Positions 26,179 through 32,628 of a stretch of 64,000 bases of DNA are shown piece after piece (position 1 is the first letter of the stretch; each line of letters starts with the position of its first letter). The DNA is taken from contig JBBCGQ010000001.1 in assembly GCA_037200845.1 (NCBI GenBank), forward strand, positions 930,001 through 994,000. The letters are read 5' to 3'. The DNA comes from Bauldia sp. GTDB lineage: Bacteria > Pseudomonadota > Alphaproteobacteria > Rhizobiales > Kaistiaceae. Under the pieces are notes generated by a model that had not been told where the DNA came from, searched no databases, and saw nothing but the letters and a program-made list of their open reading frames with translations. Both the position numbers and the translations under genes were made by a program.

Positions 26179-26203
26179 CGAACCTTTCCGCCGGCCGGGC
26201 GTT
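26179..26203 (+). promoter_or_regulatory. EcfG-like promoter candidate upstream of the glycosyltransferase
   Basis: CGAAC (26179-26183), 16 bp, CGTT (26200-26203): the -10 element and spacing fit the EcfG consensus, and the -35 differs at one base. It ends 25 bp before the GT4 start codon, so a transcript would have a short leader with GGAGG just before the ATG. Confidence 0.35.
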
Positions 26204-26228
26204 CTCCTCACTCGTTGAAGGAGGGCCC

Positions 26229-28607
26229 ATGCCTGCAGATCAGCCGACCAAACGTCGTAGCGGACCGAAGAAGGTGTCTTTTATCGGGACGTACGTTCCT
26301 CGTCGCTGTGGCATTGCCACGTTTTCCAACGATCTGCTGACCGCGCTGTCGAAGGAAGCAGCATCGACCGAATGGTGGTCGGTCGCGCTCAACGACGGTG
26401 CGGAAAATTATGATTACCCGCCCGAGGTGCATTTCGAGATCGCGCAGAAGAGTCTCGCCGACTACCGCAAGGCCGTCGATTTCCTGAACATGAATCAGGT
26501 CGAGGCCGTCAGCCTGCAGCACGAGTTCGGCATCTACGGCGGCTCGGCCGGCAGCTACATCCTCCGACCGCTCGAAAATCTCCGCATGCCGGTGGTGACG
26601 ACGCTGCATACCGTGCTCAAAGAACCGAACTCCGAGCAGAAGGACATCATCCGGGCGATCGGCGAATTCTCCGACCGCGTCGTCGTGATGAGCGAGATGG
26701 CCGAGCAGGTGCTCACCTCGGTCTACGGCATCCCCAAGGAGCGCGTCGCGGTGATCCCGCACGGCGTGCCCGACATGCCGTTCCTCGACACGTCCTACAA
26801 CAAGGACCAGTTCGATCTGGTCGGCAAGAAGGTGATCCTCACCTTCGGCCTTCTCTCGGAAGGCAAGGGCCTCGAATACGTCATCGAGGCGCTGCCCGAC
26901 ATCGTCAAGGTTCACCCTGAGGCGATCTTCGCGATCCTCGGCGCCACCCACCCCGAGGTGAAACGGCGCGAGGGCGAAGCGTATCGCCAGATGCTCCAGC
27001 GCAAGGCGCTCGACCTCGGCGTGGGCGACAACGTCGTCTTCTACAATCAGTTTATCGACACGCCGACACTGCTGGCCTTCCTGTCGGCGGCCGACGTCGT
27101 CGTCACGCCCTATCTCGGCCGCGAGCAGATCGTCTCCGGCGTGCTGTCGTATGCGCTGGGCGCCGGCAAGGCCATCGTGTCGACGCCGTACTGGTACGCC
27201 GAGGAGATGCTCGCCGATAACCACGGCGTCCTTGTTCCCTTCAAGGACGCGAAGGCGACCGGCGCGGCGATCACCGAGCTTCTGTCCAACGACATCGAGC
27301 GCAACGCCATGCGCAAGCGCGCCTATCTCCGCGCCCGCCCGATGATATGGAGCGAAGTCGCACAGCAATACCTGCGCCTGTTCCGCGACGTGCGCCGCGA
27401 GCGCGGCGTGCGGCCGCGCGTCTACCGGATGAAGACGCTGGAATCGACGGCGCTCGACCTGCCGTATCCGCGGCTCGACCATCTGCGCGTGCTGACCGAC
27501 GACACCGGCATCCTGCAACACGCACGCTTCGACATTCCCGACCGCGACCACGGCTACTGCACCGACGACAATGCGCGTGCGCTGATCGTCACGCTGCAGA
27601 CGCAGCATGTGCTTGCCGATAGGGACGACGATCGCGGCGTGCTCGCGCACCGCTACCTGTCGTTCCTGCAGCAGGCCTACAACGAGCAGAACGGCCGCTT
27701 CCGGAATTTCATGGGCTACGACCGCCGCTGGAAGGAGGAGGAAGGCAGCGAGGATTCGCATGGCCGCGCCCTCTGGGCGCTGGGCCAGACCGTGCTCGAT
27801 TCTCCGTCACAAAGCATGGCGGCGGCCGCCATGGCGCTGTTCGAACGCGCGCTGCCCCGGGCCATCGAGCTCGAGTCGCCGCGCGCCGTCGCTTACTCGC
27901 TGCTGGGCGTCGAGGCGTACCTCCGGCGCTTCAGCGGAGCGACCGAAGTCCGCCGGGCTCATCTCGTTCTGGCGGAGCGGATACTGGAGGCGTTCACGCT
28001 CAACGCGAAAGCCGACTGGCCGTGGCCGGAGGAGACGCTTACCTACGCCAACGGCCTTCTGCCGCATGCCTTGATCGGCGCCGGCAATCGCCTCGGCCGG
28101 CAGGAAATGATCGACACCGGCCTGCGTACGCTGCAGTGGCTGAGCGAGCTGCAGACCGATCCCAAGGGGCATTTCGTCCCGATCGGCAATCGCGGCTGGT
28201 TCAGCCGCGACGGTGTGCAGGCGCGTTTCGACCAGCAGCCGATCGAGGTCCAGCACATGACGGACGCCGCGCTGGAAGCTTTCCGCGCCACCGGCGACCA
28301 CCAGTGGCTGGATGTCGCCCGCCGCGCCTTCGAATGGTTCCTCGGCCGCAACGATCTCGGCCAGCCGGTCTGCGACCACGCCACCGGCGGCTGCCGCGAC
28401 GGCCTGCAGCCCGAGGGGCTGAACCACAACCAGGGCGCGGAATCGACGCTCGCCTGGCTGCACTCGCTGCTCGCGATGCACATCGCCACCGGCACAGCGT
28501 CCGTCGCCGTACGCGACATCACCACGGCGCGTCGCGCGTCGCCCGTGCCTTCGAACAGCGCGCCCGTTCCCGAGCGCGCCGTCGGCGCCCCCCACATTCG
28601 AGGTTGA
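26229..28607 (+). CDS. GT4 glycosyltransferase fused to an (alpha/alpha)-barrel-like C-terminal domain
   Basis: 792 residues. Residues about 15-400 are a GT-B, family 4 glycosyltransferase: GTYVPRRCGIATFSNDLL at the start, VIPHGVPD, LTFGLLSEGKGLEYVIEALP and the donor-binding EQIVSGVLSYALGAGKAIVS. Residues about 430-750 are a helical domain with an acidic DRDHGYCTDDNARALIVTLQ segment and repeated WLDVARRAFEWFLGR-like helices, reminiscent of (alpha/alpha)6 glycosidase or epimerase barrels. ATG 26229 has GGAGG upstream. It is followed four bases later by a GH130 gene and then by ManC, so GDP-mannose is the likely donor. The acceptor and linkage are unknown. Confidence 0.85.
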   Translation: MPADQPTKRRSGPKKVSFIGTYVPRRCGIATFSNDLLTALSKEAASTEWWSVALNDGAENYDYPPEVHFEIAQKSLADYRKAVDFLNMNQVEAVSLQHEFGIYGGSAGSYILRPLENLRMPVVTTLHTVLKEPNSEQKDIIRAIGEFSDRVVVMSEMAEQVLTSVYGIPKERVAVIPHGVPDMPFLDTSYNKDQFDLVGKKVILTFGLLSEGKGLEYVIEALPDIVKVHPEAIFAILGATHPEVKRREGEAYRQMLQRKALDLGVGDNVVFYNQFIDTPTLLAFLSAADVVVTPYLGREQIVSGVLSYALGAGKAIVSTPYWYAEEMLADNHGVLVPFKDAKATGAAITELLSNDIERNAMRKRAYLRARPMIWSEVAQQYLRLFRDVRRERGVRPRVYRMKTLESTALDLPYPRLDHLRVLTDDTGILQHARFDIPDRDHGYCTDDNARALIVTLQTQHVLADRDDDRGVLAHRYLSFLQQAYNEQNGRFRNFMGYDRRWKEEEGSEDSHGRALWALGQTVLDSPSQSMAAAAMALFERALPRAIELESPRAVAYSLLGVEAYLRRFSGATEVRRAHLVLAERILEAFTLNAKADWPWPEETLTYANGLLPHALIGAGNRLGRQEMIDTGLRTLQWLSELQTDPKGHFVPIGNRGWFSRDGVQARFDQQPIEVQHMTDAALEAFRATGDHQWLDVARRAFEWFLGRNDLGQPVCDHATGGCRDGLQPEGLNHNQGAESTLAWLHSLLAMHIATGTASVAVRDITTARRASPVPSNSAPVPERAVGAPHIRG

Positions 28608-28611
28608 ACAG

Positions 28612-29583
28612 ATGCTGACCCAGGCTCCTTTCCGCGAACTGTTCACCCGCCACAAGGCGAACCCGATCATCACGGCAAAGGATCTGCCATACCGCGCGAG
28701 CACCGTGTTCAATCCCGGCGCCACGCTGTTCGAGGGCGAAACGCTGCTAATGATCCGCGTCGAAGATTTTCGCGGTCACTCGCACTTGACTGTCGCCCGC
28801 TCCAAGGACGGCGTCTCCAACTGGCGCTTCGACAAGGAGCCGACGTTCCTGCCCTCGCCGGAGAAATACCCGGAGGAGATCTGGGGCGTCGAGGATCCGC
28901 GCATCACCTACATCGAGGACCAGAAGAAATACGTCATCTGCTACACCGCCTTCTCCGTCGGCGGTCCGCTGGTCTCGATGGCCACCACCACCGACTTCCA
29001 GACCTTCCAGCGTCTGGGCCCCGTGATGCCGCCCGACGACAAGGACGCGGCGCTCTTCCCGGTCAAGTTCAAGGGCCGCTGGGCGATGCTGCATCGTCCG
29101 GTGCCGACGACGTCGGCCTCCGGCGCGCATATCTGGCTGTCGTGGTCGCCCGACCTGAAGCATTGGGGCGATCACCACATCCTCTTGTGGGCGCGCCGCG
29201 GTGGCTGGTGGGACGCCAACAAGATCGGCCTGTCGCCGCCGCCGCTGTGGACCCCGGAAGGCTGGCTGCTGATGTATCACGGCGTGCGCATCAACGCCTC
29301 CGGCGCCATCTATCGCCTCGGCCTGGCGCTGCTCGATCTGGAAAATCCGACGCAGGTCATCTCGCGCGGCGACGAATGGATCTTCCAGCCGGAGCAGGAC
29401 TACGAGCGCTTCGGCGACGTGGACAAGGTCGTGTTCCCGTGCGGCTGGGTCGAGCAGGACGGCGAGGTTCGCATCTATTACGGCGCCGCGGATTCGAGCA
29501 TTGCGCTCGCTACCGCCAGCGTCACCGAGATGCTCGACTGGCTGAAGCACACCCAGGCCCAGCCCCGCCGCGCCGACGTCTAG
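28612..29583 (+). CDS. GH130-family mannoside phosphorylase-like protein
   Basis: 323 residues, cytoplasmic. The five-bladed propeller signatures of GH130 are visible: FNPGATLFEGETLLMIRVED, WGVEDPRITYIEDQKKYVIC (with the catalytic-acid-type Asp), ALFPVKFKGRWAMLHRP, GWLLMYHGVRINASG and a final VVFPCGWVEQDGEVRIYYGA. Characterised relatives cleave beta-mannosides with phosphate to release mannose 1-phosphate; some run as mannosyltransferases. The start is four bases after the GT4 stop, so the two are coupled. The next gene (ManC) uses mannose 1-phosphate, which fits a phosphorylase role. Confidence 0.85.
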   Translation: MLTQAPFRELFTRHKANPIITAKDLPYRASTVFNPGATLFEGETLLMIRVEDFRGHSHLTVARSKDGVSNWRFDKEPTFLPSPEKYPEEIWGVEDPRITYIEDQKKYVICYTAFSVGGPLVSMATTTDFQTFQRLGPVMPPDDKDAALFPVKFKGRWAMLHRPVPTTSASGAHIWLSWSPDLKHWGDHHILLWARRGGWWDANKIGLSPPPLWTPEGWLLMYHGVRINASGAIYRLGLALLDLENPTQVISRGDEWIFQPEQDYERFGDVDKVVFPCGWVEQDGEVRIYYGAADSSIALATASVTEMLDWLKHTQAQPRRADV

Positions 29584-29666
29584 CAACGGCGGCGCTAACG
29601 GCGCCCCGTTCCCATCGTCGTGGTTTTTCGCTACCTAGCCTCCTTCTCGTTTCGAATGAGGGTCGC

Positions 29667-31094
29667 GTGATCGTTCCTGTCATCATGTCCGGCGGCGCCG
29701 GAACGCGCCTGTGGCCTGCCTCCCGGCTCGACGCGCCGAAGCCTTTCCTGCCGCTCGTCGACGGTCAATCGACGTTTGCGCTGACGCTCACCCGCATCGC
29801 CGACCGCGGCCGCTACGCCGAGCCGCTGATCGTCACCAGCGCCGACCATCGTTATTTGGTCGAGACTGCGTTGGAGAAGGCCGGTGTGAGCGCCGCCCTG
29901 CTGCTTGAGCCGATGGCGCGCGACACCGCCGCCGCGGTCGGCGCGGCGGCCGCCTTTGCCGTGTCTAAGGACAAGAACGCCGTGATACTCGTGCTCGCGG
30001 CCGATCATCTCATCGACGATGGCGACGCCTTCGCGAGCGTCGTCGACGCCGCGCTGCCCGCCGCCGAAGCCGGCCGCATCGTCGTCTTCGGGGTGAAGCC
30101 GCGCGGCGCCTCGACCGCCTTCGGCTACATCAAGCCGGGCGCCGCGACCGGCCAAGGCACCGCCAAGGCGGTCGAGCAGTTCGTCGAGAAGCCCGACGCC
30201 AAGCGCGCCGCCGAACTGGTCAAGGACGGCTACCTCTGGAACTCCGGCATCTTCCTCATGCGCGCCTCGGTCGCGCTGTCGGAGCTCGACGCCTACGCCG
30301 CCGAGATAGGCGCCGCCGCGCGGAAGGCAGTCGCCGCCGGCCAGGTCGACGGCAACGTCACGACGATCGACAAGGCCGCCTTCGAGGCCGCGCCGAAAAA
30401 ATCCATCGACTACGCCGTCATGGAGAAGACGAAGCTCGCCGTGGTCGTGCCTGCCGACTTCGACTGGAACGATCTCGGCACCTGGTCGTCGGTCTGGGAC
30501 GAGAGCCAGAAGGACGAGGACGGCAACGTCGCGGTCGGCAACGTCACGTTCGTCGATGCCAAGGACAACTACGTCTCGAGCGAGACCGACACCGTCGGCG
30601 TCGTCGGCGTCGGCGATCTGGTGGTCGTCGCGGCCGACGGCTCGATCCTGGTGACGACGCGCTCGCGCGCCGCCGAGGTCAAGGAACTGGTCGCCGCCGT
30701 GCAGGCCAAGCCCGAGGCGAACTTCGGCGACTTCGTCCGCCACTTCCGGCCATGGGGCAACTACCAGTCCCTCGATCAGGGTCCGCGCCATCAGGTGAAA
30801 CGCATCGTAGTGACATCCGGCGCCCGCCTGTCGCTGCAGAAGCATTTCCACCGCGCCGAGCACTGGACCGTGGTCTCGGGCATCGCCGACATCACCATCG
30901 GCCCCGACATGGATAACCTGAAGACGATCCGCGTGAACCCGAACGAGTCGGTGCACATCCCGCTCGGCCACATCCACCGCATGGCCAACCCGGGCAGGGA
31001 GCCGATGACGCTGATCGAGGTGCAGATCGGCGACTATCTCGGCGAGGACGACATCGTCCGCCTGCAGGACGACTACGGCCGCAAAGACGCCTAG
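29667..31094 (+). CDS. manC: mannose-1-phosphate guanylyltransferase / mannose-6-phosphate isomerase
   Basis: 475 residues starting at GTG 29667 (GAGGG upstream). The nucleotidyltransferase domain opens PVIMSGGAGTRLWPASR and has AADHLI, FVEKP and the WNSGIFLMRA loop. The C-terminal type II isomerase cupin (about 365-475) has FRPWGNYQSLDQGPRHQVKR and QKHFHRAEHW. It makes GDP-mannose from mannose 1-phosphate and GTP, and interconverts mannose and fructose 6-phosphates. It follows GH130 by 83 bp, providing donor for the GT4. It may also serve polysaccharide synthesis in general. Confidence 0.93.
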   Translation: MIVPVIMSGGAGTRLWPASRLDAPKPFLPLVDGQSTFALTLTRIADRGRYAEPLIVTSADHRYLVETALEKAGVSAALLLEPMARDTAAAVGAAAAFAVSKDKNAVILVLAADHLIDDGDAFASVVDAALPAAEAGRIVVFGVKPRGASTAFGYIKPGAATGQGTAKAVEQFVEKPDAKRAAELVKDGYLWNSGIFLMRASVALSELDAYAAEIGAAARKAVAAGQVDGNVTTIDKAAFEAAPKKSIDYAVMEKTKLAVVVPADFDWNDLGTWSSVWDESQKDEDGNVAVGNVTFVDAKDNYVSSETDTVGVVGVGDLVVVAADGSILVTTRSRAAEVKELVAAVQAKPEANFGDFVRHFRPWGNYQSLDQGPRHQVKRIVVTSGARLSLQKHFHRAEHWTVVSGIADITIGPDMDNLKTIRVNPNESVHIPLGHIHRMANPGREPMTLIEVQIGDYLGEDDIVRLQDDYGRKDA

Positions 31095-31215: not shown

Positions 31216-32628
31216 GTGTCCGACCAATCCGGGAAACCGCGCGTGCCGCCTGCCACCACGCTTAAAATTATCTCGCCCACGCCGGCGGCCGACGAAGAGG
31301 CGCTCCGCCTCTCCGAGCTTCTGAGCGCGCTGAGCCATGCGCTGGACCTGACCGAGGGCCAGCCGGAAGGGCACTGCGTCCGCTGCTGCTGGATCGGCAC
31401 CGCGATCGGCCGCGAGCTCGGCCTCGCCGAGACCGAGTTGTGGGAACTCTACTACACGCTGCTCCTCAAGGACGTCGGCTGCTCGTCCAACGCCGCCCGC
31501 ATCTCCGCGCTCTACAAGACCGACGATCTGCTGTTCAAGCACGACGTCAAGATCGTCGGCACCAGCCTGCCGGCGCTGCTCGGCTTCGTCGTCTCGCACA
31601 CCGCCGGCGCCGCGAGCCTCGCCGACCGCGTGCAGACGATCCTGTCGGTCGTGCCGCAGACCCCGCGCGTCGCTAACGAGATTATCAAGACGCGCTGCGA
31701 GCGCGGGGCCGACATCGCCCGCCGCCTGCGCTTCTCGGAACGCGTCGCGAGCGGCATCCACGACCTCGACGAACATTGGGACGGCAGCGGCAACCCCGCC
31801 GGCAAGAAGGGCGAGGCGATCCCGGTCTATGCCCGCATCGCGCTGCTGGCGCAGGTCGTCGATGTGTTCAACACTGCCTACGGCCGCATCGAGACGCGCA
31901 AGGAAGTCGCCCGCCGCGCCGGCTCGTGGTTCGACCCGGCGCTGGTCGCAGCCTTCACGCGCGCGCAGGGCAAGCTCGGCTTCTGGGAGGGGCTGGCCTC
32001 GCCGCACCTCGAAAGCACCATCCTCGAGCTTGAGCCGGGCCGCCAGGCCAAGACTCTGGATGACGATTTCCTCGACGATATTGCCGAAGCCTTCGCCGAG
32101 GTCGTCGACTCGAAAAGCCCGTATACCAGCGGCCATTCCTCGCGGGTCGCCGCCTTTGCCGACATGATCGCCGCCGAGCTGGGCTTCCCGGAGGAACGCC
32201 GCCGCTGGCTGAAGCGCGGCGCGCTGCTCCACGATATCGGCAAGCTCGGCGTCTCCAGCGCCATCCTCGACAAGCCCGCCCGGTTGACCACCGCGGAGCG
32301 CGACGCCATGCGCCAGCACGCCGCCCTGACCGAGACGATCCTGTCGCGCATCGCCGCCTTCGCCGAACTCGCCCGCGTCGCCGGCGCCCATCACGAGCGC
32401 CTCGACGGCAAGGGCTACCCGCACGGCCTCGCCGGCGACGAGATCGCGATGGAAACGCGCATTCTGACGACCGCCGACATCTTCGACGCGCTGACCGCCA
32501 AGCGGCCCTACCGCGACGCCCTGCCGGAAGACACCGCGCTGGAGATCATGGCGGCCGAAGTCGGCAGCGCGATCGACCCGCGCTGCTTCACCGCGCTCCG
32601 GATCGCGCTGGCGAAGCGCCGCACCTAG
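31216..32628 (+). CDS. tandem HD-GYP-type protein with degenerate first copy
   Basis: 470 residues from GTG 31216. The second half (about 285-470) is a good HD-GYP: HSSRVAAFADMIAAELGF, LLHDIGKLGVSSAILDKP and HHERLDGKGYPHGL, so a metal-dependent cyclic-di-GMP-type phosphodiesterase is likely. The first half (about 30-260) follows the same plan with altered ligands: LLLKDVGCSS in place of the HD motif, and HDLDEHWDGSGNPAGKKGE with GNP for GYP, then IPVYARIALLAQVVDVF. It looks like an internal duplication in which copy one lost catalysis. No sensor or membrane domain is present. The GTG is 121 bp after ManC, so a separate promoter is possible. Confidence 0.8.
   Translation: MSDQSGKPRVPPATTLKIISPTPAADEEALRLSELLSALSHALDLTEGQPEGHCVRCCWIGTAIGRELGLAETELWELYYTLLLKDVGCSSNAARISALYKTDDLLFKHDVKIVGTSLPALLGFVVSHTAGAASLADRVQTILSVVPQTPRVANEIIKTRCERGADIARRLRFSERVASGIHDLDEHWDGSGNPAGKKGEAIPVYARIALLAQVVDVFNTAYGRIETRKEVARRAGSWFDPALVAAFTRAQGKLGFWEGLASPHLESTILELEPGRQAKTLDDDFLDDIAEAFAEVVDSKSPYTSGHSSRVAAFADMIAAELGFPEERRRWLKRGALLHDIGKLGVSSAILDKPARLTTAERDAMRQHAALTETILSRIAAFAELARVAGAHHERLDGKGYPHGLAGDEIAMETRILTTADIFDALTAKRPYRDALPEDTALEIMAAEVGSAIDPRCFTALRIALAKRRT

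Follow-up and report, generated by a model that had tools for sequence, protein, structure and literature searches.

A widespread gene pair for a tailed GT4-type glycosyltransferase and a GH130 enzyme, with a possible role in cytosolic mannoside turnover

A stretch of 64,000 nucleotides from Bauldia sp. (GenBank assembly GCA_037200845.1, contig JBBCGQ010000001.1, positions 930,001 to 994,000; the whole stretch is below called the window) carries a three-gene unit for a GT4-type glycosyltransferase with an (alpha/alpha)6-barrel tail, here named GT4T, for a GH130 enzyme and for ManC. The core of this unit, GT4T together with GH130, is a widespread gene pair that is new here insofar as a literature search, which covered open-licence papers, did not find it described. 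We propose, tentatively and at slightly below an even chance, that the pair, here accompanied by ManC, forms a cytosolic mannoside turnover unit, probably under EcfG control, that works by the cycle outlined further on. All elements lie on the plus strand, with 4 bases between GT4T and GH130 and 83 bases between GH130 and ManC:

26179-26203, plus strand: promoter candidate, EcfG-like, CGAAC-N16-CGTT, one mismatch to GGAAC-N16-CGTT
26229-28607, plus strand: GT4T gene, ATG start, stop ending at 28607, 792 amino acids
27441-28508, plus strand: part of the GT4T gene for the predicted (alpha/alpha)6-barrel tail, family of PDB 7tem, by profile match and structure match
28612-29583, plus strand: GH130 gene of the short type, mannoside phosphorylase candidate, 323 amino acids, PF04041
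29667-31094, plus strand: ManC gene, mannose-1-phosphate guanylyltransferase / mannose-6-phosphate isomerase (GMP-PMI), GTG start, 475 amino acids, TIGR01479

A sequence-only reading of this DNA had described a GT4 enzyme with a helical, glycosidase-like tail, a GH130 gene four bases further on, and ManC. This architecture is confirmed by the scores for Pfam Glycos_transf_1 (70.2 bits, cut-off 26.4), PF04041 (214.2 bits, cut-off 26) and TIGR01479 (558.7 bits, cut-off 372.95), and by the prediction of an (alpha/alpha)6 barrel for residues 405-760 of GT4T (mean pLDDT 93.3).

Conservation of the gene pair, which the same reading had put forward for checking, was found in each of three samples. 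Among 81 genomes, comprising the window's own genome and 80 relatives, GT4T occurs in 14 and GH130 in exactly those 14 (Fisher 5e-16); ten of the 14 pair-bearing genomes belong to one genus, and collapsing by genus leaves the pair in 5 of 62 (P 1.5e-7). A sample of 240 genomes of the class yielded GT4T in seven and GH130 in eight; all seven GT4T genomes have GH130 adjacent, and a single genome (G087) has GH130 without GT4T. Furthermore, a profile-guided scan recovered at least 590 relatives of GT4T, the 80 best-scoring of which, a choice that leans toward close relatives, were taken as named loci. According to their record titles these 80 loci cover many phyla, with Desulfobacterota, Chloroflexota, Planctomycetota, Acidobacteriota, Bacteroidota, Cyanobacteria and metagenome-assembled genomes (MAGs) of Lokiarchaeota among them. 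A GH130 gene is located on the same strand within 3 kb of GT4T in 63 of the 80 loci, and within 120 bases or overlapping in 48, where simple assumptions give a chance expectation of about 0.2 in 80. In the remaining 17 loci, GH130 is farther away (one), on the opposite strand (two) or not seen (14); in eight of these 14 the sequence on the downstream side is shorter than 2.6 kb, and one of the eight (L036) shows a 99-residue piece of GH130 below the score limit. When whole genomes were searched for ten of the 17 loci without a nearby same-strand GH130, the gene was present in all ten. Plasmid records with a hit numbered 28; six were examined, and each has GH130 in the same gene cluster, that of a Deinococcus plasmid being unannotated. 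The pairing of GT4T and GH130 is real and far beyond chance, and it is not peculiar to Alphaproteobacteria, so that the suggestion of something special to an alphaproteobacterium does not hold. Since ManC, manA-like genes and phosphomannomutase (PMM) genes are rare beside the unit in the 80 loci, its core is GT4T plus GH130. As to genomic context, the unit is also carried by plasmids typed as conjugative, pILYOP02 of Ilyobacter polytropus (L017) and pSES220 of Sphingobium yanoikuyae (L018), and copies of GT4T are present on two MAG contigs titled as Lokiarchaeota (L028, L077). Scans of viral contigs with GT4T and with its tail gave no relatives.

The loop had been proposed to be intracellular, and this is in agreement with a simple hydropathy scan, in which GT4T, GH130 and ManC have no membrane or signal-peptide-like segment, as well as with the lack of a recurrent transporter family among the partner genes scanned. 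No mannoside transporter is encoded in the three-gene unit or in its two flanking genes. The gene on the 5' side encodes an FAD oxidoreductase/GcvT-type protein and the one on the 3' side an HD-domain protein, neither of which appears related to the unit; the latter, an HD_5 gene downstream of ManC (window positions 31216-32628, 176 bits), is kin to a NosR-type c-di-GMP phosphodiesterase model, with a score far under the cut-off of that model. Of 56 other open reading frames (ORFs) in co-directional chains, 48 were scanned for families; none from outside the unit occurs more than twice, and among 25 of the 66 families the transporter-type ones were SBP_bac_3, MlaE and Na_H_Exchanger, each with a single occurrence. 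These data bear on the possibility that GH130 phosphorolyses imported beta-mannosides and that GT4T serves another step, for which a published Thermoanaerobacter cluster with two GH130s, ManC, a GT4 and an ABC transporter offers a model (PMC4264767). Such import and salvage is in our opinion distinctly unlikely here, given that no transporter family recurs among the scanned partners and that a synthesis-type GT4T is the constant companion of GH130 in the sampled Alphaproteobacteria.

The solved structure closest to the GH130 protein is TM1225 (1vkd; E 2.1e-61, 211 bits). Since it also matches both UhgbMP, a beta-1,4 enzyme (190 bits), and Lin0857, a beta-1,2 enzyme (174 bits), the linkage is unreadable from similarity. 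The catalytic D95, in a D-P/A-R motif, is found in all 55 short GH130s compared. They likewise share E94, R162 and H223, and each has either Lys or Arg at position 204; at the phosphate site the window protein retains R162, K204 and H223. Basic residues that bind phosphate are reported to be missing in GH130 hydrolases (PMC4599007), and because they are largely kept here, phosphorylase rather than hydrolase would be the likelier activity. In 12 of the 14 unit-bearing genomes of the relatives sample the short type is replaced by a longer GH130, some 440 residues in length. The solved GT108 enzyme MTP4 of Leishmania (6Q50) was not named among the 19 PDB sequences obtained at E <=10 with the single GH130 sequence, a search that can miss distant kin.

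Residues 11 to 392 of GT4T, approximately, form a GT-B domain of the GT4 type. Its nearest folds are sucrose-phosphate synthase, BshA, MshA and PimA (VIA Z 35-36; 36.3 for sucrose-phosphate synthase and 35.2 for PimA), and Lys213 and His127 are invariant in all 46 members compared. The structural matches include the lipid mannosyltransferases PimA and PimB', which would suit a role in the envelope, GT4T extending a surface glycan or a lipid-linked one by a sugar and GH130 only salvaging; the single ManC of the genome, which presumably feeds all uses of GDP-mannose, would suit it too. This role in the envelope is quite improbable, as no non-unit family, and hence no export or lipid-carrier family, is present more than twice among the 48 partner ORFs, and as GT4T is almost obligately paired with GH130, itself without an evident signal peptide. 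At four loci (L025:12421-13650, L027, L034 and L057) the full GT4T has beside it a GT4T-like protein of some 410-440 residues, a length insufficient for a tail; these proteins are possibly a second subunit.

The tail has its nearest solved relative in 7tem (YPO2471, putative exported protein; profile E 2.7e-17), with VIA Z 38.9 across 335 residues and an rmsd of 2.6. Cellobiose 2-epimerases (Z about 30-31) and GH9-like enzymes (Z 30) come next, GH76 mannanases, considered as a family for the tail, match by fold at Z about 25-28, and MmpH (7qsj) lies lower, at Z 25.9. Likeness of fold does not by itself reveal the function. The tail probably holds an active site, as is suggested by the conservation of acidic and other residues across the 46 members: D424, D447, R450, D724 and N734 are invariant, D446 and E738 occur in 45, and 7tem has the same residues at the positions aligned with D446, D447, D724, N734 and E738. 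With regard to the catalytic histidines of the epimerases, a single His, H431, is invariant (46 of 46) among the tail positions tallied. Identity with GH127 was considered and rejected, the Pfam match being below threshold (15.5 bits versus 24.9).

With respect to mannose metabolism, ManC is the only GMP-PMI found in the window's own genome, as a single match, and no more than 5 of the 80 loci have it next to the pair; it is thus not a dedicated recharging enzyme. In the same loci a short GT4 was found beside the unit 21 times, a manA-like gene twice and a free-standing PMM not at all. These tallies, that for ManC included, are based on profiles made of one to three sequences each and on genes called simply as the longest ORFs. 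The link with mannose is commoner in Alphaproteobacteria, where 11 of the 14 loci from relatives have a manA-like gene with the unit. ManC lies beside it in the window and in the relative G004, the gene order in Sphingobium is ManC, manA-like, GT4T, GH130, PMM, and in Devosia and Sinorhizobium it is manA-like, GT4T, GH130. Gene fusions also tie the unit to mannose: ManC is fused to PMM in L054:5873-8410, ManC-PMI-PMM fusions, PMI being mannose-6-phosphate isomerase, occur in L088:6717-9821 and L090:12464-15640, and six of 22 short GT4s carry a mannose-6-phosphate isomerase cupin. The three-domain proteins could convert fructose 6-phosphate to GDP-mannose within one polypeptide. Elsewhere in the window's own genome (G000:C1:2725985-2726273), phosphoglucomutase/phosphomannomutase matches are spread over two frames that overlap, and one of these contains an in-frame TGA; the gene may be disrupted, or the sequence may contain an error.

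Stress control had been suggested on account of the EcfG-like motif. The reported EcfG consensus is GGAAC-N16-CGTT (PMC7083833), and in Sphingomonas melonis the putative motifs of genes under EcfG regulation include a CGAAC variant (PMC6599016). The window site is indeed present, 25 bases before the GT4T ATG, but by itself the motif is weak and too common to carry the claim, with 140 genome-wide matches to SGAAC-N16/17-CGTT versus 100 for the reversed control. The site gains some weight from G004 (L121), in which an exact GGAAC-N16-CGTT is located at 47 bases before the GT4T start, with its end 22 bases from that start, a nearly equal distance; alignment of the two promoter regions revealed no convincing upstream homology, so that only the geometry of the site is common. 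An exact promoter directly precedes the unit in eight of 18 upstream stretches, seven of them from the ten genomes of one genus, with the site 114-116 bases ahead of the manA-like match; the eighth is from G004. Seven sites of common ancestry count as one, which leaves two lineages (rough P about 0.001). One further exact match is inside a gene (L116), one stretch (L119) showed no recognisable gene of the unit, and five more loci (L004, L016, L018, L019 and L021) have no exact site, which brings the total to 8 of 23 alphaproteobacterial loci other than the window. With the exact promoter in some relatives and NepR present in the window's own genome, general-stress (EcfG) control is plausible, and we regard it as probable on these sequence grounds.

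The neighbourhood in other organisms deserves mention in this respect. In Sphingobium (L018) groES-groEL lie directly upstream of the unit, in Devosia a CsbD gene is located about 6 kb upstream, and in two desulfobacterial MAG loci a RelA/SpoT-type gene is directly 5' of GT4T (L022:6556-8043 and L024:8491-9972), hinting at a link with the stringent response. Together with the EcfG promoter of some relatives, these neighbours would also fit a stress-induced small solute, in which case GT4T makes a short mannosylated or glucosyl-mannosyl oligosaccharide protectant that GH130 removes after the stress. The short GT4 partner points in the same direction, being closest to glucosylsucrose synthase of Thermosynechococcus, an enzyme that uses UDP-glucose (PMC9909042). 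On the other hand, no gene for a solute-type acceptor recurs, and short and long GH130s are found together in some loci, for example in Ilyobacter (L017) and in L029, L033 and L058, which could fit enzymes that share the work according to chain length, as they do in Thermoanaerobacter. We consider the protectant explanation fairly unlikely.

In the mannoside turnover cycle that we propose, ManC, whose isomerase half would work together with a mutase from another locus, would provide GDP-mannose. GT4T would be the glycan builder, its GT-B domain transferring a sugar that is most likely mannose and its tail trimming or re-priming the product. GH130 would phosphorolyse a terminal beta-mannosyl unit to alpha-mannose 1-phosphate, which could be recharged by ManC or enter glycolysis through a mutase. 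We infer the substrates, linkages, polymer length and storage role of this scheme.

A number of observations weigh against it, stereochemistry in the first place. GT4 enzymes are retaining (PMC9883506) and should yield alpha-mannosides, whereas GH130 needs beta-mannosides, the phosphorolysis of which proceeds with inversion to alpha-mannose 1-phosphate (PMC4264767). A simple loop in which GT4 polymerises GDP-mannose and GH130 phosphorolyses the polymer, as the sequence-only reading had it, therefore does not close without an extra step. This step may be a glycan with both linkages, an atypical GT4T domain, or synthesis of the beta-chain by GH130. We prefer the last option, which resembles the dual enzymes of family GT108 in Leishmania: GT4T would prime or branch, and GH130 would run both ways on a beta-mannan.

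The donor is a second difficulty. The EX7E motif is missing in GT4T (0 of 46 members, residues 290-336), whereas it is kept in all 23 short GT4s that accompany the unit elsewhere. Likewise, no member out of 46 has an Arg in the donor-phosphate loop (residues 205-213), and the position matching the donor-binding Arg196 of PimA is Leu208 in one alignment and Gly207 in another, both invariant. GDP-mannose as the donor of GT4T is thus not assured, and the domain may use another donor or have a regulatory role. In GH130, V151 aligns with R150 of UhgbMP, the first phosphate-binding Arg of that enzyme; solved Lin0857 has Glu at this position, and so does 9fj8, a 1,2-beta-oligomannan phosphorylase. 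Moreover, E94 corresponds to the Glu beside the catalytic acid that is described as the mark of the non-phosphorylase group GH130_NC (PMC4599007), although the phosphorylase Lin0857 has the same Glu.

The identity of the product is affected as well. Due to the scarcity of ManC, manA-like and PMM genes in the broad sample, a mannose product rests mainly on GH130, and the manA-like genes are divergent, four of five tested scoring 51-57 bits for TIGR00218 with its cut-off of 116.2, and that of L051 passing at 134.5 bits. The likeness of the short GT4 to glucosylsucrose synthase makes glucose in the product possible, the genome also encodes a glycogen-synthase-type gene, and 15 of the 23 loci showed no exact EcfG site.

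A polymer reserve is a plausible product of the turnover cycle. According to an extension of this proposal, which we find rather doubtful, many prokaryotes would have an equivalent of mannogen, with a mannan kept inside the cell as a reserve or protectant. A new class of EX7E-less GT4-like enzyme with its own trimming barrel would make it, and GH130 would recover it by phosphorolysis; the system would recur across many bacterial phyla and in Lokiarchaeota MAGs, and would be switched on by the general stress response in some Alphaproteobacteria. If this were true, bacteria would possess a mannose-based counterpart of glycogen, and a role could be given to at least 590 genes typically annotated 'glycosyltransferase family 4 protein' as well as to the GH130 genes beside them. 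The existence of GH130 genes without an uptake system nearby would be explained too, and there would be a test case for whether a GT-B enzyme without EX7E still uses GDP-mannose. All in all, the earlier guess that mannose is cycled in the cytosol under stress control is now better supported, its specific enzymology is less certain, and its analogy with Leishmania is inexact.

Among known systems, the sole precedent that our search of open-licence papers yielded for GH130 with GT4 and ManC is the Thermoanaerobacter cluster Teth514_1785 to 1796, in which these genes also occur together, the two GH130s being beta-1,2-mannoside phosphorylases. Unlike the present unit, that cluster also has a GH5 enzyme and an ABC transporter encoded by five genes, and its authors propose import and salvage (PMC4264767). 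The intracellular methylmannose polysaccharide of mycobacteria is built by the GT4 enzyme ManT and requires the hydrolase MmpH for its biogenesis (PMC9883506). ManT (7qsg) resembles the GT domain of GT4T (Z 32.7) and MmpH the tail, a likeness of fold only, with many matches ranking higher; the two are separate proteins in mycobacteria, and their equivalents are fused in GT4T. The mycobacterial system is not known to include a GH130. The (alpha/alpha)6-barrel fold of the tail is also that of cellobiose 2-epimerase and the AGE superfamily, and a partnership of cellobiose 2-epimerase with GH130 occurs in mannan catabolism. In the mannogen cycle of Leishmania, GDP-mannose is the donor. The enzymes of that cycle, which had been called GH130-type, belong to GT108, a family with the same fold as GH130 and distant in sequence, and they are dual glycosyltransferase-phosphorylases that recycle an energy-storage beta-1,2-mannan (PMC8950772). 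The Bauldia unit differs in that GH130 is a family separate from GT108 and in its GT4 fused to an (alpha/alpha)6 barrel, which the account of the Leishmania enzymes consulted does not describe; what the two systems have in common is the beta-propeller fold of mannoside phosphorylases and the chemistry of mannose 1-phosphate.

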